DNA from: a virus
IMG/VR virus record: IMGVR_UViG_3300046009_010585
Span: 1-24,313 of that record
DNA length: 24,313 nucleotides
Strand: one strand, 5' to 3'
Position 1 is the stretch's first letter; each line of letters begins with the position of its first letter. Below the pieces are notes generated by a model. That model was not told the DNA's origin. It did not search any database and saw nothing but the letters and a program-made list of their open reading frames with translations. A program made the translations under genes and the position numbers. Shown here piece after piece: positions 4,243 to 23,844 of the stretch.

Positions 4243-4263
4243 AACTTGTTCTTTCTGTTTAAG

Positions 4264-4337
4264 TGGACCAGCCTGGACTCGAACCAGGGACCGTCGCGTT
4301 ATGAGCGCGCTACTCTAACCAACTGAGCTACAGGTCC
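4264..4337 (-). tRNA. tRNA with CAT anticodon, Ile2-like or elongator Met
   Basis: Cloverleaf with acceptor GGACCTG, D-arm GCTC/GAGT, loop CTCATAA and a perfect T-stem CCTGG/CCAGG. The GGACCT acceptor resembles Ile2 tRNAs whose C34 is modified to lysidine, so it may read AUA. Discriminator A, next base C, no CCA encoded. Last tRNA of the array in transcription order. Confidence 0.85.
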
Positions 4338-4508
4338 AATTTGCTTGTCTAGACAAGCTACCAATAAAATAAAAAACACGCTCCTAAGCATTCTACTCCC
4401 AGCTCCGAGGAATTGTATATAACTTAGCCCGATACTCACCGCTGTACAGGTACTTAGGTTCGCGTGTTTGTGATCCATGTTCTGATTTCGGGATGAATCT
4501 TTCCCACG
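4338..4508 (-). other. 171-nt tRNA spacer with palindrome and open frame
   Basis: No tRNA was found here. It contains a 16-nt perfect palindrome (4343-4358), a 6-bp inverted repeat CCTAAG/CTTAGG (4383-4388, 4453-4458) and, on the minus strand, an open stretch of about 37 codons ending at 4393 (product tail LYSGEYRAKLYTIPRSWE) that lacks a start codon. The last may be a gene remnant or chance. Confidence 0.4.
4343..4358. repeat. Perfect 16-nt palindrome
   Basis: GCTTGTCT is followed immediately by AGACAAGC, giving a spacer-less palindrome 5 nt beyond the 5' end of the CAT-anticodon tRNA. It could be a protein-binding site or fold as a hairpin in the precursor transcript; the sequence does not decide. 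Confidence 0.5.
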
Positions 4509-4600
4509 TAGTCAGGACAGGATTCGAACCTGTATGTACAGTTATACAGAACTGCACATCCCTGTATGGATATTTGCGTCTACCATTCCGCCACCTGACT
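4509..4600 (-). tRNA. Class II tRNA with abnormal anticodon loop, identity unassigned
   Basis: Acceptor AGTCAGG/CCTGACT, a Leu-like D-arm (GCG, then GAATGGTAGA, CGC), a long variable arm (CAGTT/AACTG) and a normal T-arm ACAGG/CCTGT with TTCGAAT-type loop. The anticodon stem ATATCC/GGATGT leaves a 6-nt loop ATACAG, or an 8-nt loop CATACAGG if the last pair opens. Neither gives a normal 7-nt loop with U33 and a standard Leu, Ser or Tyr anticodon. Confidence 0.65.
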
Positions 4601-4659
4601 ATATTAAAACTTGTAAAACCCACCCCATGGCAAGGAAACTCCGTTTCGTGTTTTTTGCG

Positions 4660-4743
4660 TACCCCAGGCGGGACTTGAACCCGCACGAGCATAATGCCCA
4701 CTGAATTTTAAGTCCAGCGTGTCTACCATTCCACCACCGGGGC
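4660..4743 (-). tRNA. tRNA-Leu(TAA)
   Basis: Class II cloverleaf, 84 nt. Anticodon stem CTGGA/TTCAG with loop CTTAAAA gives TAA. The long variable arm GGGCATTATGCTC and the GAATGGTAGA D-loop are typical of Leu. Discriminator A, then C. Confidence 0.93.
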
Positions 4744-4901
4744 AAATGGCAATTTAATTGATTAGATCTCACGAAGCATTGCCAACTCCGAATGAAGAAC
4801 GATTTACGGCTTTACTTCATTGATTCCCGCCTTTGTCTCACGCCCAAAAGTATGTCGAAAGGTTTCTGGGATACCTATAACCTCAAGTAATCATCTTGTA
4901 G
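4744..4901 (-). other. 158-nt tRNA spacer with inverted repeats
   Basis: No tRNA signature is present. TGGCAAT (4747-4753) pairs with ATTGCCA (4778-4784), starting 3 nt from the Leu tRNA, and AATGAAG (4791-4797) pairs with CTTCATT (4815-4821). No convincing gene was seen. It looks like a structured spacer. Confidence 0.4.
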
Positions 4902-4974
4902 TAGCGGGGGCGGGACTCGAACCTGCGACCTTCAGGTTATGAGCCTGCTGAGCTACCAACTGCTCTACCCCGCT
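4902..4974 (-). tRNA. Initiator-like tRNA-fMet(CAT)
   Basis: D-arm GAGC/GCTC following TA, loop CTCATAA and the AAGGTCG junction are the hallmarks of bacterial initiator tRNA. However the 1-72 position is an A-U pair rather than the usual mismatch, and the pairs under the loop read AGG/CCT rather than GGG/CCC. The T-stem has one A-C mismatch. Discriminator A, then C. Confidence 0.85.
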
Positions 4975-4980
4975 ATATTG

Positions 4981-5052
4981 TATTCCGTACGGGAATCGAA
5001 CCCGTGACTTTGCCGTGAAAGGGCAACGACTTAACCGCTTGTCGAACGGAAC
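4981..5052 (-). tRNA. tRNA-Glu(TTC)
   Basis: Acceptor GTTCCGT/ACGGAAT, anticodon stem TTGCC/GGCAA, loop CTTTCAC giving TTC, T-loop TTCGATT. Six-nt spacer CAATAT to the initiator-like tRNA downstream. Confidence 0.94.
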
Positions 5053-5059
5053 TTGTATG

Positions 5060-5131
5060 CGGTCCATGCGAGAATCGAACTCGAGGCACCACCGTGACAG
5101 GGTGGTATGTTAGCCACTACACCAATGGACC
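5060..5131 (-). tRNA. tRNA-Asp(GTC)
   Basis: Acceptor GGTCCAT/ATGGACC, anticodon stem CCACC/GGTGG, loop CTGTCAC giving GTC. Discriminator G, as expected for Asp, followed by C. Confidence 0.95.
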
Positions 5132-5176
5132 ATTAATAAAAGTCCCCTATCGGTTATAGGATCTTTAAGACTTTCG
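5132..5176 (-). repeat. Two-tier hairpin in tRNA spacer
   Basis: AAAGTC (5139-5144) pairs with GACTTT (5169-5174) and inside it CCTAT (5146-5150) pairs with ATAGG (5156-5160). The outer arms sit 7 and 2 nt from the Asp and Ala tRNAs, so the spacer folds into its own stem between them. Confidence 0.55.
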
Positions 5177-5250
5177 TGGAGCCGGTGGGAATCGAACCCA
5201 CCACAGATTGCTTGCAAAGCAGTCTCGTCAGCCTTGAGACATACAACCCC
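5177..5250 (-). tRNA. tRNA-Ala(TGC)
   Basis: Loop TTTGCAA between CTGC and GCAA gives TGC. Acceptor GGGGTTG/CGGCTCC pairs with wobbles, T-stem GGTGG/CCACC is perfect. Discriminator A, then C. Confidence 0.93.
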
Positions 5251-5256
5251 ATTATG

Positions 5257-5329
5257 AGCGATAGACAGGGCTCGAACCTGCGACCCCCGACTTGGAAGGA
5301 CGGTGCTCTACCATCTGAGCTACTATCGC
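5257..5329 (-). tRNA. tRNA-Gly(TCC)
   Basis: Acceptor GCGATAG/CTATCGC, loop CTTCCAA giving TCC. The anticodon stem CCGTC/GTCGG has one T-T mismatch. Discriminator T (normal for Gly), then C. Its 5' end abuts the stop codon of the 47-aa gene. Confidence 0.92.
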
Positions 5330-5473
5330 TTAAAAACCATACGACATAAATTGTCTATACATAATATGTTCTTCCTGGCACGCACATTCCGTTAACGTAC
5401 CTTGAAATAAAATCGAATTATCTGACAACGCAATCAATTGATATGTGTCATTAATTAAATGTCTAATTTCCAT
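5330..5473 (-). CDS. 47-aa protein inside the tRNA array
   Basis: The product runs MEIRHLINDTYQLIALSD, then NSILFQGTLTECACQEE and IMYRQFMSYGF. The core resembles small phage proteins of the pattern YxLIDxxxNxxLFxGTLxEC, which are uncharacterised. I chose the ATG at 5473 rather than a longer in-frame start at 5512, because the promoter at 5492-5522 predicts an RNA start near 5487 and an AAAGAG leader precedes this ATG. The stop codon TAA (5332-5330) touches the tRNA-Gly 5' end, so the transcript probably runs on into the second half of the tRNA array. Confidence 0.75.
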   Translation of the reverse strand: MEIRHLINDTYQLIALSDNSILFQGTLTECACQEEHIMYRQFMSYGF

Positions 5474-5491
5474 CTCTTTATTTTTATACTT

Positions 5492-5522
5492 TAAATATAT
5501 AAAATAAATCAATCGAATCCAA
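5492..5522 (-). promoter_or_regulatory. Promoter, TTGGA-N18-TATATTTA
   Basis: TTG at 5522-5520 inside GGTTGGA, TATATTTA at 5499-5492. Identical architecture to the site at 7714-7744, including AAAAGGTTGGA. Predicted leader to ATG 5473 is about 14 nt; the transcript can continue into tRNA-Gly and the following tRNAs. Confidence 0.75.
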
Positions 5523-5544
5523 CCTTTTTGTTACTTTTTTTTTG

Positions 5545-5616
5545 AGCTTAAGGAGGGACTTGAACCCCCATACCGAGATTTTGCAGACCTGGACCTTACC
5601 AATCGGACACTTAAGC
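5545..5616 (-). tRNA. tRNA-Cys(GCA)
   Basis: Perfect acceptor GCTTAAG/CTTAAGC, loop CTGCAAA giving GCA, discriminator T as is typical for Cys, then C. Last tRNA of the upstream half of the array before the promoter for the 47-aa gene. Confidence 0.93.
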
Positions 5617-5621
5617 ATTTG

Positions 5622-5694
5622 TGGACCGGGAGGGAATCGAACCCCCGACACGAAGATCTTCAATCTCCTGCTCTACCAACTGAGCTACCGGTCC
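5622..5694 (-). tRNA. tRNA-Phe(GAA)
   Basis: Acceptor GGACCGG, anticodon stem GGAGA/TCTTC, loop TTGAAGA giving GAA, T-loop TTCGATT. Spacer CAAAT to tRNA-Cys. Confidence 0.94.
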
Positions 5695-5700
5695 TTGTTG

Positions 5701-5773
5701 CACTCCAGGATGGGTTCGAACCACCGACACCCGGATTTGGAATCCGGTGCTCTACCAACTGAGCTACTGAAGT
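5701..5773 (-). tRNA. tRNA-Trp(CCA)
   Basis: Anticodon stem CCGGA/TCCGG with loop TTCCAAA gives CCA. Acceptor ACTTCAG/CTGGAGT, discriminator G (Trp-like), then C. It reads UGG only, so there is no sign of a UGA-as-Trp code. Confidence 0.95.
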
Positions 5774-5840
5774 ATGTAATAAACCTAATTTTGCTTTACT
5801 ATACCTAGTTGGTTTAGTGTCGCAATTTTTTATTTTATCG
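5774..5840 (-). other. 67-nt spacer, possible weak promoter
   Basis: On the minus strand TTGCG lies 17 nt before TATAGTAA, close to but not matching the window-wide promoter rule, upstream of tRNA-Trp. TAAACC and GGTTTA form a 6-bp inverted repeat. The promoter reading is tentative. Confidence 0.3.
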
Positions 5841-5913
5841 TACCCTCGCAGAGATTCAAACTCCGATTCCATCATTAGAAGTGATGTGTCCTATTCCGTT
5901 GAACGACAAGGGC
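5841..5913 (-). tRNA. tRNA-Arg(TCT)
   Basis: Anticodon stem CATCA/TGATG, loop CTTCTAA giving TCT (AGA/AGG). T-loop TTTGAAT, a minor variant. Discriminator A, then C. Confidence 0.93.
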
Positions 5914-5918
5914 AATTG

Positions 5919-5991
5919 TACACCTGAAGAGATTCGAACTCCTAGCCTCTTCGTTCGTAGCGAAGTGCTCATCCATTTGAGCTACAGGTGT
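5919..5991 (-). tRNA. tRNA-Arg(ACG)
   Basis: Acceptor ACACCTG/CAGGTGT, anticodon stem CTTCG/CGAAG, loop CTACGAA giving ACG, which would need A34 deamination to inosine by host TadA to read CGU, CGC and CGA. Spacer CAATT to tRNA-Arg(TCT). Confidence 0.94.
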
Positions 5992-6140
5992 AAGTAAAGA
6001 TGATGAATAACTTTATCGGGAATCTTGGCTTGGAAGCCTTCACACACCATTAGAGAGCTGAGTATTGCTACTTATCCTTAGTGTGTACCTTTGCGACACG
6101 TCTCTCCACGCTTGCCATTCTACGCTTTGTATCATCTTTG
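5992..6140 (-). repeat. 149-nt tRNA spacer closed by a 9-bp inverted repeat
   Basis: AAAGATGAT (5996-6004) and ATCATCTTT (6131-6139) are perfect complements lying 4 nt and 1 nt from the flanking tRNAs. The inside has only short frames (31 and 16 codons) that I do not count as genes. Confidence 0.55.
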
Positions 6141-6221
6141 TACCTCGGGAGGGACTTGAACCCTCACACCTTTCGGCAACGGTTTCTAAGACCGCCGTGA
6201 CTACCATTCCACCACCAAGGC
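6141..6221 (-). tRNA. tRNA-Leu(TAG)
   Basis: Class II, 81 nt. Anticodon stem GCGGT/ACCGT, loop CTTAGAA giving TAG, variable arm TGCCGAAAGGTGT. Discriminator A, then C. Confidence 0.93.
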
Positions 6222-6349
6222 ATAAAGAGCAGCTACGGGTTTTTCGGGGTTACTGATTGAGTGCAATGAGTGACGCCTGCCTACTACTAACCCTTTTTCA
6301 GCATTTAAAACACTCTACTTCTCAACTACAGCATTCCACTGCTCTTTGG
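6222..6349 (-). repeat. 128-nt tRNA spacer closed by a 9-bp inverted repeat
   Basis: AAAGAGCAG (6224-6232) and CTGCTCTTT (6340-6348) are perfect complements lying 2 nt and 1 nt from tRNA-Leu and tRNA-His. No gene is seen inside. Confidence 0.55.
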
Positions 6350-6422
6350 GTGTATGACGGGAGTTGAACCCGCGACCTCTTGAACCACAATCAAGCACTC
6401 TAACCAACTGAGCTACATACAC
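6350..6422 (-). tRNA. tRNA-His(GTG)
   Basis: Anticodon stem CTTGA/TCAAG, loop TTGTGGT giving GTG. Acceptor GTGTATG/CATACAC with discriminator C, as His requires. The base in front of G1 is U, so the G-1 identity element is not encoded. Confidence 0.93.
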
Positions 6423-6424
6423 AG

Positions 6425-6492
6425 TACCGAGAAGTGGTAACGATCCACTCTAGGTTCGGATATGAGCCAAACCCGGTCCCTGACCTCTCGAT
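6425..6492 (-). tRNA. Aberrant tRNA with CAT anticodon and short D-arm
   Basis: Only 68 nt. Acceptor ATCGAGA/TCTCGGT, anticodon stem TTTGG/CCGAA with loop CTCATAT, 5-nt variable loop, T-stem AGTGG/CCACT with loop ATCGTTA. Between acceptor and anticodon stem there are only 14 nt, folding as GGTC-AGG-GACC. It still has discriminator A followed by C, like every other tRNA here. It may be elongator Met or Ile2. Confidence 0.65.
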
Positions 6493-6498
6493 ATATTG

Positions 6499-6584
6499 AG
6501 GAAAGCATTGGAATCGAACCAAATACCTTTGCAGGTACACATTGCTTAGCAGGCAAGCCCTATCGCCATCAAGGTTTACTTTCC
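6499..6584 (-). tRNA. tRNA-Ser(GCT)
   Basis: Class II, 86 nt. Loop CTGCTAA between TTGC and GCAA gives GCT. Acceptor GGAAAGT/GCTTTCC, variable arm TACCTGCAAAGGTA. Discriminator T instead of the usual G of Ser tRNAs, then C. Confidence 0.9.
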
Positions 6585-6589
6585 AATTG

Positions 6590-6663
6590 TGCGTCTAACT
6601 GGACTCGAACCAATAACCTTCCGCGTATCAGGCGGATGCTCTAACCAATTGAGCTATAAACGC
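6590..6663 (-). tRNA. tRNA-Ile(GAT)
   Basis: Anticodon stem TCCGC/GCGGA, loop CTGATAC giving GAT. Acceptor GCGTTTA/TAGACGC, discriminator A, then C. Spacer CAATT to tRNA-Ser. Confidence 0.95.
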
Positions 6664-6669
6664 ATTGTG

Positions 6670-6744
6670 CTGACCAGGTAGGACTCGAACCTACTATCCT
6701 CGGCTTAACAGGCCGTAGCTGTATACCACTTAAGCTTCTGGCCA
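6670..6744 (-). tRNA. tRNA-Asn(GTT)
   Basis: Loop CTGTTAA between CGGC and GCCG gives GTT. Acceptor TGGCCAG/CTGGTCA, discriminator G as expected for Asn, then C. Confidence 0.94.
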
Positions 6745-6750
6745 ATATTG

Positions 6751-6831
6751 TGGAAGTGGTAGGGTTCGAACCTACACGCCTTTCGGACTTGATTTACAGT
6801 CAAGCGAGCCAGCCAATTGCTCAACACTTCC
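6751..6831 (-). tRNA. tRNA-Tyr(GTA)
   Basis: Class II, 81 nt. Loop CTGTAAA between TTGA and TCAA gives GTA; variable arm TCCGAAAGGCG. Perfect acceptor GGAAGTG/CACTTCC. Discriminator A, then C. Confidence 0.94.
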
Positions 6832-6836
6832 AATTG

Positions 6837-6909
6837 TACACCCTATAGGATTCGAACCTATGACATCTGCTATGTAAAAGCAGCGCTCTACCAATTGAGC
6901 TAAAGGTGC
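6837..6909 (-). tRNA. tRNA-Val(TAC)
   Basis: Anticodon stem CTGCT/AGCAG, loop TTTACAT giving TAC. Acceptor GCACCTT/AGGGTGT with wobble pairs, T-stem ATAGG/CCTAT. Spacer CAATT to tRNA-Tyr. Confidence 0.94.
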
Positions 6910-6914
6910 ATTTG

Positions 6915-6985
6915 TGATCCTGGACGGTAATGATCCGTCTTCCCCAAATTAAAAGTTTGGTGCATCACCTTAATGCTTCAGGATC
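6915..6985 (-). tRNA. tRNA-Lys(TTT) with non-canonical T-loop
   Basis: Acceptor GATCCTG/CAGGATC, D-arm GCAT/ATGC, anticodon stem CCAAA/TTTGG, loop CTTTTAA giving TTT, T-stem GACGG/CCGTC. The T-loop is ATCATTA rather than TTCRANT: A54 for T54, T58 for A58, and A60. All stems are intact. Confidence 0.88.
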
Positions 6986-7052
6986 TTTCGTTTTGCGATA
7001 CTTATCGCTCTTGTCACTTTCCATAATTGATCCTTTTATGGGTTAATAATAG
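6986..7052 (-). repeat. 67-nt spacer with two small hairpins
   Basis: GCGATA/TATCGC (6995-7000, 7003-7008) and CCATAA/TTATGG (7021-7026, 7036-7041) are perfect 6-bp inverted repeats between tRNA-Lys and tRNA-Pro. No gene. Confidence 0.45.
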
Positions 7053-7126
7053 TCTAAGCGGAAAGACTCGAACTTTCAGTCTCTGCATCCCAAATGCAGC
7101 GGATTAACCAATTTTCCTACGCCTAG
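7053..7126 (-). tRNA. tRNA-Pro(TGG)
   Basis: Anticodon stem CTGCA/TGCAG, loop TTTGGGA giving TGG. Acceptor CTAGGCG/CGCTTAG with C1-G72, a Pro-type pair; discriminator A, then C. Confidence 0.94.
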
Positions 7127-7192
7127 TTGTCAACTGTGTAGCAATTGCCAAATGCAAATTACTTTTTGTATAGCGCACAGTTGCTCGCTTTG
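7127..7192 (-). repeat. 66-nt tRNA spacer with 8-bp inverted repeat
   Basis: CAACTGTG (7131-7138) and CACAGTTG (7176-7183) are perfect complements, 4 and 9 nt from tRNA-Pro and tRNA-Ser. No gene inside. Confidence 0.5.
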
Positions 7193-7276
7193 AGGAAGAA
7201 GTAGGTGTCGATCCCAATACCTTGCAGTACCACCCGCTTTCAAGGCGGAGTCACAGGCCGCTGTGATTCATCTTCC
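7193..7276 (-). tRNA. tRNA-Ser(TGA) with non-canonical T-loop
   Basis: Class II, 84 nt. Anticodon stem TCCGC/GCGGG, loop CTTGAAA giving TGA. Variable arm TACT-GCAA-GGTA. T-loop is ATCGACA (A54 and A60) and the T-stem has a mismatch; the D-arm TCACA/TGTGA is atypical. Discriminator T, then C. Confidence 0.8.
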
Positions 7277-7281
7277 AATTG

Positions 7282-7355
7282 TTGCCCCGGGAGGAGTCGA
7301 ACCTCCAAACTCCACAGTCAAAGTGTGGTGACTTTGCCAATTCGTCTACAGGGCA
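7282..7355 (-). tRNA. tRNA-Gln(TTG)
   Basis: Anticodon stem CCACA/TGTGG, loop CTTTGAC giving TTG. Acceptor TGCCCTG/CGGGGCA, discriminator A, then C. Spacer CAATT to tRNA-Ser. Confidence 0.94.
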
Positions 7356-7391
7356 TTGTATAGCCAATATGTCAAAGAACGTTTTCTTTTG

Positions 7392-7464
7392 AGCTTTGAG
7401 AGGGAATCGAACCCACAACCTCATCATTACAAGTGACGTGCACTACCAATTGTGCTATCAAAGC
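7392..7464 (-). tRNA. tRNA-Thr(TGT), first of the array
   Basis: Anticodon stem CGTCA/TGATG, loop CTTGTAA giving TGT. Acceptor GCTTTGA/TCAAAGC, discriminator T, then C. It lies just past the terminator at 7473-7503, so the array starts either by read-through or from a promoter I cannot see. Confidence 0.93.
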
Positions 7465-7767: not shown

Positions 7768-8010
7768 TTATTTTAAAATAACCGTTCCTTCCATTACTCC
7801 CCAACTCGATTTTTCGCGGAAATAAACGATGCCTGTAACGGTGTCTTTTGTACAAATCCACATTTCGTTTTCTTTCCAAGTGACATTCAAAACCTTTTCA
7901 TTTGGTTTCAACGAAATTTCTTCTGTTCCACCCCATCTACGAGCTCTGGAATTTTCTGTGCAACTAGTTGCCAATGAAACTAATGCTACTGCTAAAATTA
8001 ATTTTTTCAT
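7768..8010 (-). CDS. 80-aa lipoprotein, unknown function
   Basis: The N-terminus MKKLILAVALVSLATSC is a lipoprotein signal peptide with the lipobox LATS-C17, so the mature protein should be lipid-anchored in the host envelope. The mature part (about 63 residues) has RRWGGTEEISLKPNEKVLNVTWKE, then CTKDTVTGIVYFREKSSWGV, probably a small beta domain. No enzyme motif is visible. Phage lipoproteins of this size are often linked to superinfection exclusion; here that is only a suggestion. Promoter at 8018-8049, predicted leader about 4 nt. The gene is preceded by the thioesterase operon and followed by the 44-aa unit. Confidence 0.85.
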   Translation of the reverse strand: MKKLILAVALVSLATSCTENSRARRWGGTEEISLKPNEKVLNVTWKENEMWICTKDTVTGIVYFREKSSWGVMEGTVILK

Positions 8011-8466: not shown

Positions 8467-9030
8467 TTATTTGATAATGGTAACATGACCATGTAATATG
8501 ATTCGTTCATCTGAATTCAAGATACCAAAGTTTATGTACCAAATATATACGCCATCGGCTACTAGTTTATTGTTGTAAGTACCATCCCATTTTGCTGCAT
8601 CATCGAAACTTTGCCAAATTAAATTGCCCCATCGGTTTACTACAATCAAATTGAAATCCATTGCATCAAATGATCCAGTAAACACCGGACCCCATACGGT
8701 ATTGAATTCATCTCCGTTTGGTGTAAATGTATTTGGTATCCAATACACTAAATCATCACATTCCATAACCGTTACCGTAATTGATTGGGTATCTCCTGGA
8801 CAGGCTGAGCCAATTGGTGTTGCCGTTAATGTGTATACACCCGGTGTATCCCATGTAATGATTACGGAATTACCATAATAATACTGTGAATTTAATTGCC
8901 ATTCAACGTTGCTAGCAATGTTTGATTGGGTTGAATATGTGTATGTTGCCGTATTATCGCATAATTCTACGGTTTGCTGCGATAATAACCATAATGGCAT
9001 CCATATTAATATGTATATAATAAACCGCAT
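8467..9030 (-). CDS. Secreted protein with CHU_C / T9SS type B sorting domain
   Basis: A 187-residue secreted protein. Residues 1-18 are a signal peptide (MRFIIYILIWMPLWLLSQ). Residues about 22-90 form a PKD-like beta domain with two cysteines. Residues 97-187 are a gliding-motility-associated C-terminal domain: it starts IPNTFTPNGDEFN, continues NRWGNLIWQS and WDGTYNNKLVADGVYIW, and ends GHVTIIK. In Bacteroidota this domain directs export through the type IX system to the cell surface. ATG overlaps the upstream stop as TAATG. Together with the next two genes it resembles one long flavobacterial adhesin split into parts. Surface role inferred. Confidence 0.88.
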   Translation of the reverse strand: MRFIIYILIWMPLWLLSQQTVELCDNTATYTYSTQSNIASNVEWQLNSQYYYGNSVIITWDTPGVYTLTATPIGSACPGDTQSITVTVMECDDLVYWIPNTFTPNGDEFNTVWGPVFTGSFDAMDFNLIVVNRWGNLIWQSFDDAAKWDGTYNNKLVADGVYIWYINFGILNSDERIILHGHVTIIK

Positions 9031-9581
9031 TAGTTGTGCTGTATTGGGGTTAATACTGGTATCGTGTTAACGACTGTGTTGGTTGTGGTTGTGAAAGTAC
9101 AGCCGGCGTTTGAATATGTATATGTAATTGTTGAATTAGAAGTACCAGGACAATATTGAGTACCCGTTACTCCGATGCCACTCCAGGTTCCGCCTATAGG
9201 ATTAGCTGTTAATGCAACACACGGATCATTGGCACAAAAAGGTCCAACCGGGACAATCGTTGGTACGACTTGATAGATTAATACATTGAGTGTAACTGGC
9301 AACGATACACATCCTGCTGCATTGGTAAATGTTACAGATACCGCATTGTTAATTAATCCTGCGGGACATGCAGACCAATTCACTGATATATTATTTGTTC
9401 CCTGGCCAGATACTAATGTGGCACATGTAGGTATTGTCCATGTATATGTTCCCGTACCTACCGATGCTACTTGATAGGTTGATAATGCGGTGGTTTGATA
9501 GCAAATCGTGTCTGGATTTGTTGTTGTCTGTGAATATGCTACACTTGTTAGTAACATTAATGCTAAAACGAGTTGTTTCAT
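9030..9581 (-). CDS. Secreted PKD-like beta protein
   Basis: A 183-residue protein. I place the start at ATG 9581, because a signal peptide MKQLVLALMLLTSVAYSQ begins there and an AAAAAAAGG leader precedes it; an in-frame ATG at 9638 would add 19 residues inside the upstream gene. The mature part is T-, N-, V- and G-rich with strands such as GTYTWTIPTC and AVSVTFTNAAGC, then GGTWSGIGVTGTQYCPG, typical of flavobacterial PKD/Ig-like surface repeats. The last residues NTIPVLTPIQHN closely match the end of the neighbouring 196-aa protein. It probably acts outside the cell; function unknown. Confidence 0.8.
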   Translation of the reverse strand: MKQLVLALMLLTSVAYSQTTTNPDTICYQTTALSTYQVASVGTGTYTWTIPTCATLVSGQGTNNISVNWSACPAGLINNAVSVTFTNAAGCVSLPVTLNVLIYQVVPTIVPVGPFCANDPCVALTANPIGGTWSGIGVTGTQYCPGTSNSTITYTYSNAGCTFTTTTNTVVNTIPVLTPIQHN

Positions 9582-9597
9582 GTTGTTAATCCTTTTT

Positions 9598-10188
9598 TTA
9601 ATTGTGACTGATAATACCCAATACCGGTGTTGATGCATTGATTGTCCCGTTAAAAACTGTGAATGGTGTTACGTTGTCACACGAACTATTGTTGTAACTT
9701 CCCCATAAACCATCCGGACCAGCTGTAACTTGAATCAATAAACTTTGAGGTGTGCATCCATTTGCCACCGTTAATGTCACACAAAATGTCCAGGTACATG
9801 AACCTGAATCTCCAAAATCATTTCCAGGATTACCGTCCGTAGTTAAATCAAAGAAATATCCAGGACCTACTGTTGCAACCGGAGTTGTTGTTGCAGTTAC
9901 TGTGGTTCGCCATACCCACTGTCCTCCGGTAGCATTTCCTCCACAATTTGCTGGTGCTGTTTGTGGTGTAACGGATGCCCAACCGGAACCTAAATTCAAA
10001 TCAAATCCTTCAATCCAATTGGTACCTGCTTGACTGTATCCGGTCATTGTATAACACATTGTTACTGTTTGTCCCGGAAGATATGTTCCTGCAGTCGGTT
10101 GAGGTGTTAACGTAAATGATTGCGTTCCTGCACATTGTGAATATGCATAATTACATAACAACAAATATACTATTAATAACCATTTCAT
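9598..10188 (-). CDS. Secreted beta-rich protein, first of three
   Basis: A 196-residue protein with signal peptide MKWLLIVYLLLCNYAYSQ and about six cysteines in the mature part. The body contains TAGTYLPGQTVTMCYTMTGY, GFDLNLGSGW, CTWTFCVTLTVANGC and GPDGLWGSYNNSSCDN, an N-terminal domain seen in long flavobacterial surface proteins that carry a CHU_C domain at the far end. Its C-terminus STPVLGIISHN matches the 183-aa neighbour (xPVLxxIxHN). The ATG is preceded by a very AT-rich 11-nt gap after the GNAT gene. The three proteins may assemble or act as a split adhesin; this is inference. Confidence 0.8.
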   Translation of the reverse strand: MKWLLIVYLLLCNYAYSQCAGTQSFTLTPQPTAGTYLPGQTVTMCYTMTGYSQAGTNWIEGFDLNLGSGWASVTPQTAPANCGGNATGGQWVWRTTVTATTTPVATVGPGYFFDLTTDGNPGNDFGDSGSCTWTFCVTLTVANGCTPQSLLIQVTAGPDGLWGSYNNSSCDNVTPFTVFNGTINASTPVLGIISHN

Positions 10189-10532: not shown

Positions 10533-11357
10533 TTAATGTATTCGTTTTAATATGTCACTTAATCGGGTGTACATTTCTACTGCTACCGGTACTGACAGCA
10601 GTGCGATAAGAAAATTATTTACATACGAGTATACTGTGATCACATTACCTATCGTAGCATGTTGAGTTGTCAGTACTAACACCATGATGGCAACAAACAA
10701 AAATATGTTTTTAATCATCATGATGAGGAACCAATTCTTACCTTGCAGAGTTGATTCGAATATCTCTAAATGTCTTCGCCGTTTAAAAAACAATACTGAG
10801 GCCTCATATCCAGCTTGTATAGCGTCTCCTTTGCGTTCATAGTGAGTGTTCCTCAGTTTGATTGCCTGTTTTATTTTGCCGTATAGTATGGTTACAGCTG
10901 CAAGTATTAATACAAATGCAATGCTAACCAATATACCAACCTGCCAATTTTCTGAGTAAATAAACCCAATAGATCCTATAATTGTAACAATGGTTGCAAT
11001 ATAATAATGCACATAGCCTTCTAGTACATGAACAATATCATGTGCCATATCTGTTCTAGCAATTTTGGTGGATGTATCATGATGTGGTTGCCGCAGAAAG
11101 CGAAACACGATGCTGTTGTATATTCGAGTGTACACTTTGGTATCATACACCATTCGTTTATAATTAAAAAATGCAGATAAGAAATATGATACTCCTAACA
11201 GCACCAACCAGTGCCATGTGCCATTCATCAAGCCATCAATGCTCTTACCAAGCAGGAACGGTGTTGCTAGGTTGGACAGCTCGGCGATGAGCATGAACAG
11301 ATAGATGAATGATAACTGGCGTCGATGCTGTTTGAATATCTCATAGATTTTATTCAT
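10533..11357 (-). CDS. ABC transporter six-TM domain protein without ATPase
   Basis: A 274-residue integral membrane protein with about six spans (near residues 15-35, 48-68, 120-138, 142-162, 214-234 and 243-262). It matches the type I ABC exporter membrane domain: an N-terminal elbow helix (YEIFKQHRRQLSFIYLFML), the KSIDG turn, and a coupling-helix region YERKGDAIQAGYEASVLFFK. There is no Walker A, signature or Walker B, so the ATPase half is missing and no NBD gene lies nearby. It may pair with a host ATPase or act as a membrane modifier. It begins 2 nt after thyA, so translation is coupled. Confidence 0.8.
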   Translation of the reverse strand: MNKIYEIFKQHRRQLSFIYLFMLIAELSNLATPFLLGKSIDGLMNGTWHWLVLLGVSYFLSAFFNYKRMVYDTKVYTRIYNSIVFRFLRQPHHDTSTKIARTDMAHDIVHVLEGYVHYYIATIVTIIGSIGFIYSENWQVGILVSIAFVLILAAVTILYGKIKQAIKLRNTHYERKGDAIQAGYEASVLFFKRRRHLEIFESTLQGKNWFLIMMIKNIFLFVAIMVLVLTTQHATIGNVITVYSYVNNFLIALLSVPVAVEMYTRLSDILKRIH

Positions 11358-18364: not shown

Positions 18365-18395
18365 TTATTATATAAACTTTTTTCCTTTATTCCAA
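18365..18395 (-). promoter_or_regulatory. Promoter, TTGGA-N18-TATAATAA
   Basis: TTG at 18395-18393 in CCTTGGA, TATAATAA at 18372-18365. It overlaps the last codons of the endonuclease gene. Predicted leader to groEL is about 13 nt, A-rich with a weak GGA near the start. Confidence 0.72.
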
Positions 18396-19060
18396 GGAAT
18401 TTTATTTTTATGTGAATCTGACATTTTTTTTAATGTTTCGGAACCATATGGATTTTTTAATCCTTTATTCCAAACAATTTTATTTGTAGGTTTATGTTTT
18501 TTACCTGTAAAAATTGTACAATTATCAAAATGCCATCGTTTCATTTGCGGTTCTCCGCCATTTTTTTGACAATGCGGACATTTTAATATTTTTTTTGATT
18601 TACCTTTAAGTGCAGCTGATATTTTTGTTTTTGATGCATCTGGCAATGTTTTGCCATACCAATATGCTTTGTCTCCGCGTTGTGCATCTGCTATTTTCTT
18701 TTTAGTTTCTTCCGAATGATTAATAATTTGTTTAGTCCTAGCAGTTCGTATTTTTTCTTTAATTATTTCCAAATTTGGATGATTAGATAAACTATCACCA
18801 CCGGTGCTTCCATCTAAAATATTATAAAAGTTATTATTATTAGCAGCATCATGAAATTTTATCCAATGTTCTTCTGCTAGTTTTAATTCATTAAGTGTAT
18901 CACATTCTTGCAATATTTCTTTTTTAAAATTTTCTCGGCCATATTTTTTTATAGCTTTATTTAATAATTTTCCAGAGCCTAAATATTTAGGATTATTATA
19001 CATATCTCGACCGATATATTGTTTTCCATTAACCAAATTTGTTGTAATATAAACTACCAT
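18368..19060 (-). CDS. GIY-YIG homing endonuclease with NUMOD3-type repeats
   Basis: A 230-residue free-standing homing nuclease. The catalytic module has the GIY/YIG pair as VYI (3-5) and YIG (15-17), with R18, and the usual downstream E in KLAEEHWIKFH. Residues about 100-160 hold NUMOD3-like DNA-binding segments (SEETKKKIADAQRG, ISAALKGKSKK); KCPHCQKNGG and HFDNC suggest a zinc finger; two more NKGLKNP/NKGKKF-type segments end the protein. It makes targeted double-strand breaks that spread its own gene. It sits between groEL and the VWA gene and lacks the TTKGW element of the common promoter, as expected for a mobile insert. Confidence 0.92.
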   Translation of the reverse strand: MVVYITTNLVNGKQYIGRDMYNNPKYLGSGKLLNKAIKKYGRENFKKEILQECDTLNELKLAEEHWIKFHDAANNNNFYNILDGSTGGDSLSNHPNLEIIKEKIRTARTKQIINHSEETKKKIADAQRGDKAYWYGKTLPDASKTKISAALKGKSKKILKCPHCQKNGGEPQMKRWHFDNCTIFTGKKHKPTNKIVWNKGLKNPYGSETLKKMSDSHKNKIPWNKGKKFI

Positions 19061-21376: not shown

Positions 21377-22531
21377 TTAAAATGGATTATCATCTTCGTC
21401 TGTATTGAAAATATCTTGTACTTCAGTGGCAATATGTTTTTGAATAATTTGTTTCACAAAGGTTCTTTCGGAGTCAGCTCCACCCGATGCATCAAAGAAT
21501 GGTAATACCGATACCTCCATGGCTTCTGACAATGAAAACTCATCTGCTAACAATTCACAAACACGAACTGTCATACGAGTTGATATCATGGTACTCAATT
21601 TTCCTTCTTCTGATTTCCATTCTTTTCTAGTTGCATCTGCAATATCAGCTACAGCGTGTATCATTGTAGGAGAAATTCGATTGCCATATCTTTTTGTTAA
21701 TAAATCTTCTTCTTGAGTCAAAGAAAGAATATCAACCTCAATAATTTCGAATCGATCCATTAATGCACGGTCCAATACGCGAGTTGAAGTATATTCGGTA
21801 CCGATATTTGCAGTGGCAATAAATGATACTCCAGATGCTACACGAATAGTTGGAGAATTAACATCTTCATCCAATCTCAAATAGCGTTGACCTTCATCTA
21901 AAACAGTCATTAAGATGTTCCATGCTTCTGGATGTGCTCTAGATAACTCATCTAACAATATCACAGCCGATTCCGTTTGAATTGCTCTTACGAATGCCGA
22001 TTCATCAAATGTAGTTTCGCCGTCTTGGAAATGCGTGTTACCAATAAGAGTTGCTCTTGGATCTTGTGTAGCTCCCAAGTTGAAATAAAAGAATGGACGT
22101 TCCGTTGCTACCGGCAATGCTTTTGCGGCTTGAGTCTTACCACAACCTGCAGGGCCAACCATCATGATGTTTTTTCCGCGGGCTGCTGAACGAACCAAAT
22201 ACTTCCATTTAATGTCAGACATTTCTAAGTCATTTGGCTTAATCTTGTATGAATTCTTAATCAATTCCAAAACAGGATCCATTTCTCTTTCCTCTTGCAC
22301 TTGCAATACGGGTTGTTTATATTGTATTTGACGACCTGTATCATCTGTTGCCGGTACTCGACGTGCTCGACCCGTTGTATGGTCAAATACCAAATTTTGA
22401 TTGTTAGTGTATGCCGCATTTATCATAACTGGCCTAAATAACTCAGAAATGTCTGCTCCTGTGTTAACATCAATTACGGTTAAATAACCTGGCGTTGAAT
22501 CATCAATTCTTCCTGTTTGTATCGTATTCAT
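21377..22531 (-). CDS. MoxR/CobS-like AAA+ ATPase
   Basis: A 384-residue AAA+ protein. Walker A is GPAGCGKT (126-133), Walker B is ILLDE (191-195), sensor 1 is ATANIG (239-244), and DRALMDRF (254-261) gives the arginine finger. This is the MoxR-like/CobS branch. The N-terminal 100 residues are a linker with an LFRPVM motif and a disordered stretch. It should form a hexameric ring that works on the VWA/HExxH partner encoded next. The predicted leader is about 8 nt from the promoter at 22542-22573. Function of phage-encoded pairs is unresolved; metal-cofactor loading or protein remodelling are the usual proposals. Confidence 0.92.
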   Translation of the reverse strand: MNTIQTGRIDDSTPGYLTVIDVNTGADISELFRPVMINAAYTNNQNLVFDHTTGRARRVPATDDTGRQIQYKQPVLQVQEEREMDPVLELIKNSYKIKPNDLEMSDIKWKYLVRSAARGKNIMMVGPAGCGKTQAAKALPVATERPFFYFNLGATQDPRATLIGNTHFQDGETTFDESAFVRAIQTESAVILLDELSRAHPEAWNILMTVLDEGQRYLRLDEDVNSPTIRVASGVSFIATANIGTEYTSTRVLDRALMDRFEIIEVDILSLTQEEDLLTKRYGNRISPTMIHAVADIADATRKEWKSEEGKLSTMISTRMTVRVCELLADEFSLSEAMEVSVLPFFDASGGADSERTFVKQIIQKHIATEVQDIFNTDEDDNPF

Positions 22532-22575: not shown

Positions 22576-23844
22576 TTATCTTATGATTTTTTTTGCCGTT
22601 CCATCGTCATATACTTCAAGCAATAGCCCCGATTCGGTTGGCATAGCTTCTTTCCCCAGCAAGTTTAGTACTCGCACTACATGGCGTATTTTGTTGGTGT
22701 TATCAATTAATATCGGACCGTATACTTTGTAATTTCCATCCACATCATGTTGAACCAATTGATAGTAATTTAAACTGGCATTTGGTGCCGATTCGGTTAC
22801 ATGATATATGTTTTTTGTGTTTGAATTTGTAGCTGACGGATGCGTGGCAATCGTGTTCCATGTTTCGCCATTTTGACTAACTTGTACTTCAAAATGTGAA
22901 CTATTCCATTCTGATGCAGTTGCCCAATCGAATGCATTGTATGAATCATATGCATATCCTTCAAAATACATTAACTCTACCGGTAATGCCAAAATTTGAT
23001 TGATTGTTGCTTGATATCCAGCCCATGTTCCGATATTGGATACATCACTAGTAAATCGAATAGTTATTGCACTATTTGATTGAGTTGTTACGTATGACAA
23101 ATTAGTTGCAGTTCCCGTTAATGTTGCTAATAATGGAGCCGATGTGTTGAAACCATCATATACATATAAATAATCATAATCAGTTTCAATGTTTAAACTA
23201 GAAATATTTAATTCTAATTTTTTAGTTGGATCCGTTGGTGTAAATGTTATGGTTTGTGATAAGTTATTTCCATATGTTTCAGCATAACTACCTTGATCTA
23301 TAATTGTTATGGATTCATTAACTGTTTGTGAACAATTGCCTAGCATCGGAAGCAATGTGTTTTGCACGGTGTTTGTTGAAGTCCAAGACATATCATCAAT
23401 ATATCGTTCTTGTGCACCCGATGCTCGAGTATCTCTGACTCTAACATATACGTTGCTTAATGCAGATAAGTTAATTGTATATTGCTGATATGTAGCAGTA
23501 ATGGTTGTTATGGTACCTCGACTTGTCCACGTAGTTCCATTGGTCGAAGTTTCAATAACACAGCTCCACGCCGTTGTGTTTGTACTACGACGATACCAAA
23601 ACGAAAAAACACCTGGAGATGCAATGATTGGAGTTCGAATCCAATCGCCAGAGCCATTAAACCCTATAGCACGTCCGCCAGTTCGAGTAGGTGTTGTTAC
23701 CGTGATCACGGAGTTTATTGTCCAGGTTCCTCCTTGGGTTGTTACTGTTGTAGTTCCGAAGCTTTCGTATACTTGGTATCGACTGCATTGTGTATGTACT
23801 AATGTACTAAATAATGTTGCAATAATTACAATGTACCATTTCAT
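22576..23844 (-). CDS. Secreted CUB-domain protein with T9SS-like C-terminus
   Basis: A 422-residue exported protein. Signal peptide MKWYIVIIATLFSTLVHTQC (1-20). Residues 22-155 look like a jelly-roll/MAM-like domain (GDWIRTPIIASPGVFSFWY, RYIDDMSW). Residues 170-283 are a CUB domain: an N-terminal Cys, GSYAETYGNN, and YDYLYVYDGFNTSAPLL. Residues 287-380 match a flavobacterial segment before T9SS tails (LPVELMYFEGYA, WATASEWNSSHFEVQ, NYYQLVQHDVDG). The last 38 residues (VVRVLNLLGKEAMPTESGLL, then VYDDGTAKKIIR) fit a type A sorting tail. It should be exported by the host type IX system. CUB domains often bind proteins or sugars; the target is unknown. The ATG overlaps the 38-aa gene. Confidence 0.85.
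   Translation of the reverse strand: MKWYIVIIATLFSTLVHTQCSRYQVYESFGTTTVTTQGGTWTINSVITVTTPTRTGGRAIGFNGSGDWIRTPIIASPGVFSFWYRRSTNTTAWSCVIETSTNGTTWTSRGTITTITATYQQYTINLSALSNVYVRVRDTRASGAQERYIDDMSWTSTNTVQNTLLPMLGNCSQTVNESITIIDQGSYAETYGNNLSQTITFTPTDPTKKLELNISSLNIETDYDYLYVYDGFNTSAPLLATLTGTATNLSYVTTQSNSAITIRFTSDVSNIGTWAGYQATINQILALPVELMYFEGYAYDSYNAFDWATASEWNSSHFEVQVSQNGETWNTIATHPSATNSNTKNIYHVTESAPNASLNYYQLVQHDVDGNYKVYGPILIDNTNKIRHVVRVLNLLGKEAMPTESGLLLEVYDDGTAKKIIR

Follow-up and report, generated by a model that had tools for sequence, protein, structure and literature searches.

Genes with T9SS type A sorting domains have been described in a Cryophage, in which they encode an endoglucanase, a GH39 protein and a PA14 protein; this cargo is found in one phage, varies among phage variants and was read by the authors as hijacking of the host system (Bellas et al. 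2020, PMC7468147). On the bacterial side, long and short CTDs side by side have been reported within the phylum for Prevotella intermedia only, and its short CTDs are cleaved and glycosylated and have been modelled as three strands binding PorV (PMC11969387). SprB of Flavobacterium johnsoniae is a T9SS type B cargo belonging to TIGR04131 (PMC12618676). We analyzed a 24,313-base IMG/VR viral contig (the window) that encodes a putative T9SS cargo with a CUB domain and a short C-terminal tail.

The gene located at positions 22576..23844 (minus strand) encodes a protein of 422 residues, the open reading frame, strand and coordinates being exactly those of the original prediction. The protein comprises, in this order, a signal-peptide-like N-terminus, a jelly-roll domain, a CUB domain, a pre-sorting segment and a short C-terminal tail. 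The N-terminus (residues 1 to 19; 23788..23844, minus strand), which starts with MKWYIVIIATLFSTLVHTQC, was judged signal-peptide-like by eye, as originally predicted, with a cut likely before Gln19 or Cys20, and the complete homologues display the same pattern. Residues 22 to 159 (23368..23781, minus strand) matched neither Pfam nor any other sequence family, and the predicted jelly-roll was recovered at the level of the fold. In a structure model of residues 1 to 285 (16 family members; mean pLDDT of 69, with most CUB strands scoring higher), this region adopts a cleaved-adhesin/reelin-repeat-like fold resembling a reelin repeat (5b4x; Z = 11.4, rmsd of 3.3 Å over 134 residues) and the K1 cleaved-adhesin domain of gingipain Kgp (4itc; Z = 11.1, rmsd of 3.0 Å over 130 residues), residues 14 to 58 being largely of low confidence.

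The CUB domain (residues 171 to 285; 22990..23334, minus strand) was identified both by sequence and by fold. PF00431 matched residues 171 to 270 above its cut-off (E = 8.6e-8; 32.9 bits versus 21.4), so that the HMM search proposed with the original prediction bore it out, and profile comparison retrieved cubilin (5.5e-16) and neuropilin-2 (1e-10). The modelled domain superimposed on the CUB domains of spermadhesin and neuropilin with rmsd values of 2.0 to 2.4 Å over 109 to 112 residues, the best matches being spermadhesin 1spp_B (Z = 15.0; 2.0 Å over 109 residues) and neuropilin-2 (Z = 14.3). Three acidic residues invariant in the 16 members, E220 and D224 (23173..23187, minus strand) and D267 (23044..23046, minus strand), are placed like the ligands of calcium-binding CUB domains, and the protein may therefore bind calcium, D267 being the candidate third ligand. 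Foldseek also returned whole-protein matches to multi-domain animal proteins; outside the CUB domain these had high rmsd values and were not accepted as evidence of homology. No PHROG family matched the protein. The best structural match in BFVD was a 658-residue protein of an uncultured Caudovirales phage (A0A6J5NMN5), which is annotated as a CUB protein and is 35% identical; we found no published study of it.

The viral origin of the gene is indicated by its surroundings. The window contains an array of 22 tRNA genes (4263..7464, minus strand) and encodes GroEL (PHROG, E = 6.5e-173), an RNA ligase, a VWA-type protein and an AAA ATPase, the last located downstream of the CUB gene (21377..22531, minus strand) and also its neighbor in sister phages; we regard the ATPase gene as genomic context and not as a component of the mechanism. 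A sister contig of 144,950 bases contains the same region, with a CUB protein 99% identical to that of the window, and encodes a T4-like large terminase 55.6% identical to that of Flavobacterium phage vB_FspM_immuto. A bacterial chromosome, which would have undone the claim of a phage setting, was ruled out by the phage genes of the window and of the sister contig and by the presence of relatives beside gp23 capsid genes elsewhere. A plasmid origin was likewise rejected, since tblastn against plasmids matched only the pre-sorting or CUB parts. An open reading frame resembling GIY-YIG/NUMOD3 homing endonucleases (18368-19060, minus strand) lies between the GroEL and VWA genes of the window, and it looks like an insertion because the latter two lie next to each other in the sister contig.

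Comparison of the CUB gene with its sister copy (32759-34027) gave a dN of 0.0072 and a dS of 0.112 (dN/dS of ~0.06), indicating that the protein is under purifying selection. DNA identity to the sister contig was 97.1% for the CUB gene, versus 91.5% for the neighboring ATPase gene and 72.6% for the VWA gene, a pattern as after recent exchange between phages. This excess of identity would also be expected of a recently captured host gene carried as a passenger devoid of a phage role, as would the presence of CUB-domain relatives in 133 of the 150 genomes of the presumed host family. However, a profile search of the genomes of this Fluviicola family mostly retrieved the CUB part alone, with few matches extending into the N-terminal domain, and no full-length bacterial relative was found in a scan that used two short patterns and is weak for that reason. 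Moreover, 28 viral loci (some of them cut by contig ends) encode proteins of the full architecture, at positions conserved within each phage lineage, and phage hallmark genes are present. Together with purifying selection, these observations make a passenger gene or a bacterial contig very improbable, and this reading is already largely refuted.

Recurrence in 28 viral loci also indicates that the architecture is not due to chance. Some family members contain an additional GEVED or galactose-binding-like domain. The family gene was found in no fewer than four unrelated neighborhoods, each of them conserved among the phages of one lineage: in one lineage it is located directly downstream of a gp23-type major capsid gene (PF07068, E = 1.4e-72), in a second it is found near a GH19-type endolysin gene, and in another context it lies beside a phage sigma factor gene. 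Where terminases were found in other contigs of the family, they were ~30% identical to that of the sister contig, indicating transfer of the CUB gene among distantly related large phages. Signal-peptide-bearing subtilase genes adjoin the phage CUB gene in loci L035 (8167-9819, minus strand) and L043 (8335-9789, plus strand); the encoded proteins have a T9SS-like tail, which in L035 scored below threshold with PF18962 (22.3 versus a cut-off of 27).

Proximity to the capsid gene in one lineage and to the endolysin gene in another raises the question of a virion component, i.e., a capsid decoration or tail adhesin sharing domains with bacterial surface proteins, and binding domains are indeed frequent on phage structural proteins. 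We consider this explanation improbable, since the protein starts with a signal-peptide-like N-terminus and ends in a tail that also occurs on secreted proteins of cells, some of the unrelated contexts are away from structural genes, and PHROGs offered no match.

The C-terminal end of the protein is shared more widely than its N-terminal domains. The pre-sorting segment (residues 287 to 380; 22705..22986, minus strand), defined by sequence comparison, contains the motif LPVEL..W.TASE.NS..YY.L.Q.D.DG. By tblastn it matched genes on Hymenobacter, Aureispira and Flammeovirga plasmids whose annotation reads "T9SS type A sorting domain-containing protein," which agrees with its original designation as a flavobacterial pre-sorting segment. 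In nearly all of the 80 top-scoring bacterial loci, the segment is followed by a canonical-length type A tail, and the 11 canonical-length tails that were examined all matched TIGR04183. The segment followed by the short tail was found in at least 201 viral loci; the best 80 of these include 36 members of the CUB family, and most of the others differ in their N-terminal parts after a signal-peptide-like start. Uncultured huge phages of 462 to 642 kb also contain related open reading frames, one of which has the same pre-sorting segment and passes the TIGR04183 cut-off (32.7 versus 23); Bacteroidetes are among the predicted hosts of huge phages with complete genomes (Al-Shayeb et al. 2020, PMC7162821). 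Several TIGR04131 domains are present in LR745206 and LR756502.

In the window, the pre-sorting segment is followed by a tail spanning residues 382 to 422 (22579..22701, minus strand), presumed to be a short T9SS signal. This tail of ~40 to 41 residues is conserved at the exact C-terminus of the complete homologues. Strands were predicted at residues 389 to 394, 407 to 412 and 417 to 421 in a model of middling confidence. In an alignment of 15 tails, G16 and G26 were invariant and a basic residue was found near the end in all 15; motif D consists of Gly followed by aliphatic residues, and the GxY/GxN of short CTDs is absent. No match to the tail of the window protein was obtained with TIGR04183, PF18962, TIGR04131 or any relevant NCBIfam model, and scanning the 15 short tails alone against the curated T9SS models gave none. 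Comparison of the short-tail profile with canonical tails from the same bacteria by hhalign revealed no similarity (probability of 0.2%), and homology of the short tail to type A CTDs is unproven for this reason. Membership in type A was rejected on the TIGR04183 and PF18962 cut-offs. Thus, the description of the protein as a complete type A cargo was wrong, and what holds of the claimed type A-like tail is the layout of a short CTD with three predicted strands. The homologue encoded by locus L035 has the same body and a longer, type A-like tail, which scored below threshold with both TIGR04183 (15.2 bits) and PF18962 (20.0).

The distribution of the short tail in bacteria provides an indication of the host. 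It was found on diverse proteins, many with a signal-peptide-like N-terminus, of Fluviicola, Brumimicrobium and other Crocinitomicaceae, and was present in 95 of 150 Fluviicola-family genomes and in 110 of 199 genomes of the order. Phylum-wide it was detected in 1 of 296 genomes, that one being the centre genome itself, and restriction to this lineage is approximate, as the sample is thinly spread over the phylum. The T9SS translocon protein SprA is encoded by 149 of the 150 Fluviicola-family genomes. Recurrence of the tail in SprA-bearing Crocinitomicaceae leads us to regard it as a sorting module and to propose that the phage probably infects a host of the Fluviicola/Crocinitomicaceae lineage. 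A contig with a T9SS-type protein from a MAG labeled "Oligoflexia" (L060) is probably a misbinned Bacteroidota contig.

Failure of every T9SS model and the lack of alignment with canonical CTDs would fit a protein exported by Sec alone, whose tail is not a T9SS signal and which would remain in the periplasm or on the periplasmic side of the outer membrane, where it might take part in late lysis or in remodelling of the envelope. We find this unlikely, because the upstream pre-sorting segment is the same as in bacterial type A cargo, the tail behaves as an interchangeable module on unrelated secreted proteins of an SprA-bearing lineage, and one family member, that of L035, bears a type A-like tail instead. 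Export through the host T9SS is the reading that we prefer, with a probability of about 0.7 for T9SS-dependent export of the CUB protein. This part of the original prediction is sustained as a good inference, drawn from the tail layout, the tails of the SprA-bearing lineage, the type A-like tail of the homologue and a TIGR04131 cargo encoded in the window.

The latter, a second putative cargo, is encoded by the open reading frame at 9030..8467 (8467..9030, minus strand) and combines a signal-peptide-like N-terminus with a T9SS type B sorting domain that passes both TIGR04131 (44.3 bits versus 35) and PF13585 (49.4 versus 27). The same open reading frame is present in the sister contig, and a 44%-identical relative occurs in LR745206. 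No PorP/SprF shuttle gene for type B cargo was seen among the window open reading frames scanned. Two companion open reading frames with signal-peptide-like N-termini precede it: one (9030..9638, minus strand; start probably near 9581) contains a PKD-like domain (PF19408, 35.8 bits versus 25), and the other (9598..10188, minus strand) matched no family. The region 8467-10188 (minus strand) therefore contains three consecutive open reading frames of this kind, the first two sharing "..PVL..I.HN"-like C-termini that may represent another type of tail. Near the type B cargo, an open reading frame of 274 residues (10533-11357, minus strand) matches an ABC transporter membrane region (PF13748, 72.2 bits) and lacks an ATPase domain. 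An 80-residue open reading frame with a lipoprotein-like start, MKKLILAVALVSLATSC, is located at 7768-8010 (minus strand).

In other phages, a gene encoding a membrane protein of ~155 residues with several hydrophobic segments is frequently linked to a gene for short-tailed cargo. Among the CUB-family loci compared, the membrane-protein gene adjoins the CUB gene in five, which represent three different contexts. The protein was detected in 54 viral loci, and a short-tail cargo gene was directly adjacent in 32 of them, a rate somewhat biased upward by the choice of seeds from the neighbors of CUB genes; after dereplication at 90% identity, linkage was found for 19 of 31 distinct loci, commonly with an ATGA overlap between stop and start codons. 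Examples are located in L023 (11272-11748), L034 (2707-3171), L024 (9415-9879) and L038 (4276-4740). Pfam returned nothing above cut-off for this protein, and the presumed host family almost entirely lacks it (a single weak match with stops in 150 genomes). The window does not carry the gene, the CUB and ATPase genes being separated by just 44 bases. It is conceivable, if doubtful, that a dedicated surface-export module is common to many large phages infecting one Bacteroidota lineage, in which a cargo with exchangeable binding domains and a short T9SS tail is in many phages translationally coupled to the phage-specific ~155-residue membrane protein. The two would then form a new system for surface remodelling or superinfection exclusion via the host T9SS.

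On the basis of this architecture, the following sequence of events can be proposed. The CUB gene would be expressed in an infected Bacteroidota cell, and the signal peptide would direct passage through Sec. The tail of ~40 residues may then act as a minimal CTD recognized by the host T9SS, which would place the mature jelly-roll and CUB protein on the cell surface or in the medium, so that display or release of the viral protein by the infected cell is probable. There it could bind and change the surface of the infected cell, for instance through adhesion, aggregation, masking or exclusion, although any benefit for the phage is a guess. We regard binding at the infected cell as plausible, at somewhat less than even odds. 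If the proposal is correct, use of the T9SS would be a common strategy of Bacteroidota phages, given several lineages and at least 201 loci with the same end. It would also add to the curated models a short sorting tail that they lack, provide a sequence signature by which the host lineage could be recognized and open phage-driven alteration of the infected-cell surface to direct testing.

Phage use of the T9SS amounts, within the literature searched, to one remark on one phage, and we found no report of phage CUB proteins or of Crocinitomicaceae phages with T9SS cargo, preprints and most subscription journals lying outside the search. Compared with the P. intermedia short CTDs, the phage tail has a length within their range of ~40 to 55 residues, the Gly of motifs B and D, a basic motif E, short spacers of a few residues between motifs, three predicted strands and a C-terminal position on proteins that start with a signal-peptide-like sequence, a likeness judged on the motif layout given in the text of that paper and not by alignment. 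Unlike the phage tail, the P. intermedia CTDs are bacterial, belong to another order and have a motif D Tyr/Asn that is not conserved in the phage. With type A CTDs (TIGR04183/PF18962) the family shares the upstream pre-sorting segment and, in L035, a sub-threshold type A-like tail, whereas the window tail lacks YPNP and the middle strands. TIGR04131, the model to which SprB belongs, is passed by the second cargo of the window and not by the CUB protein. Phage-encoded T9SS cargo is already known as a kind from the one earlier report on Cryophage. In contrast to the type A domains of that single phage, the proteins described here combine CUB and cleaved-adhesin-like domains with an unmodelled short tail and are conserved over several T4-like lineages; what appears to be new is the CUB/cleaved-adhesin family with its wide distribution, its short tail and the membrane-protein gene linked to it.
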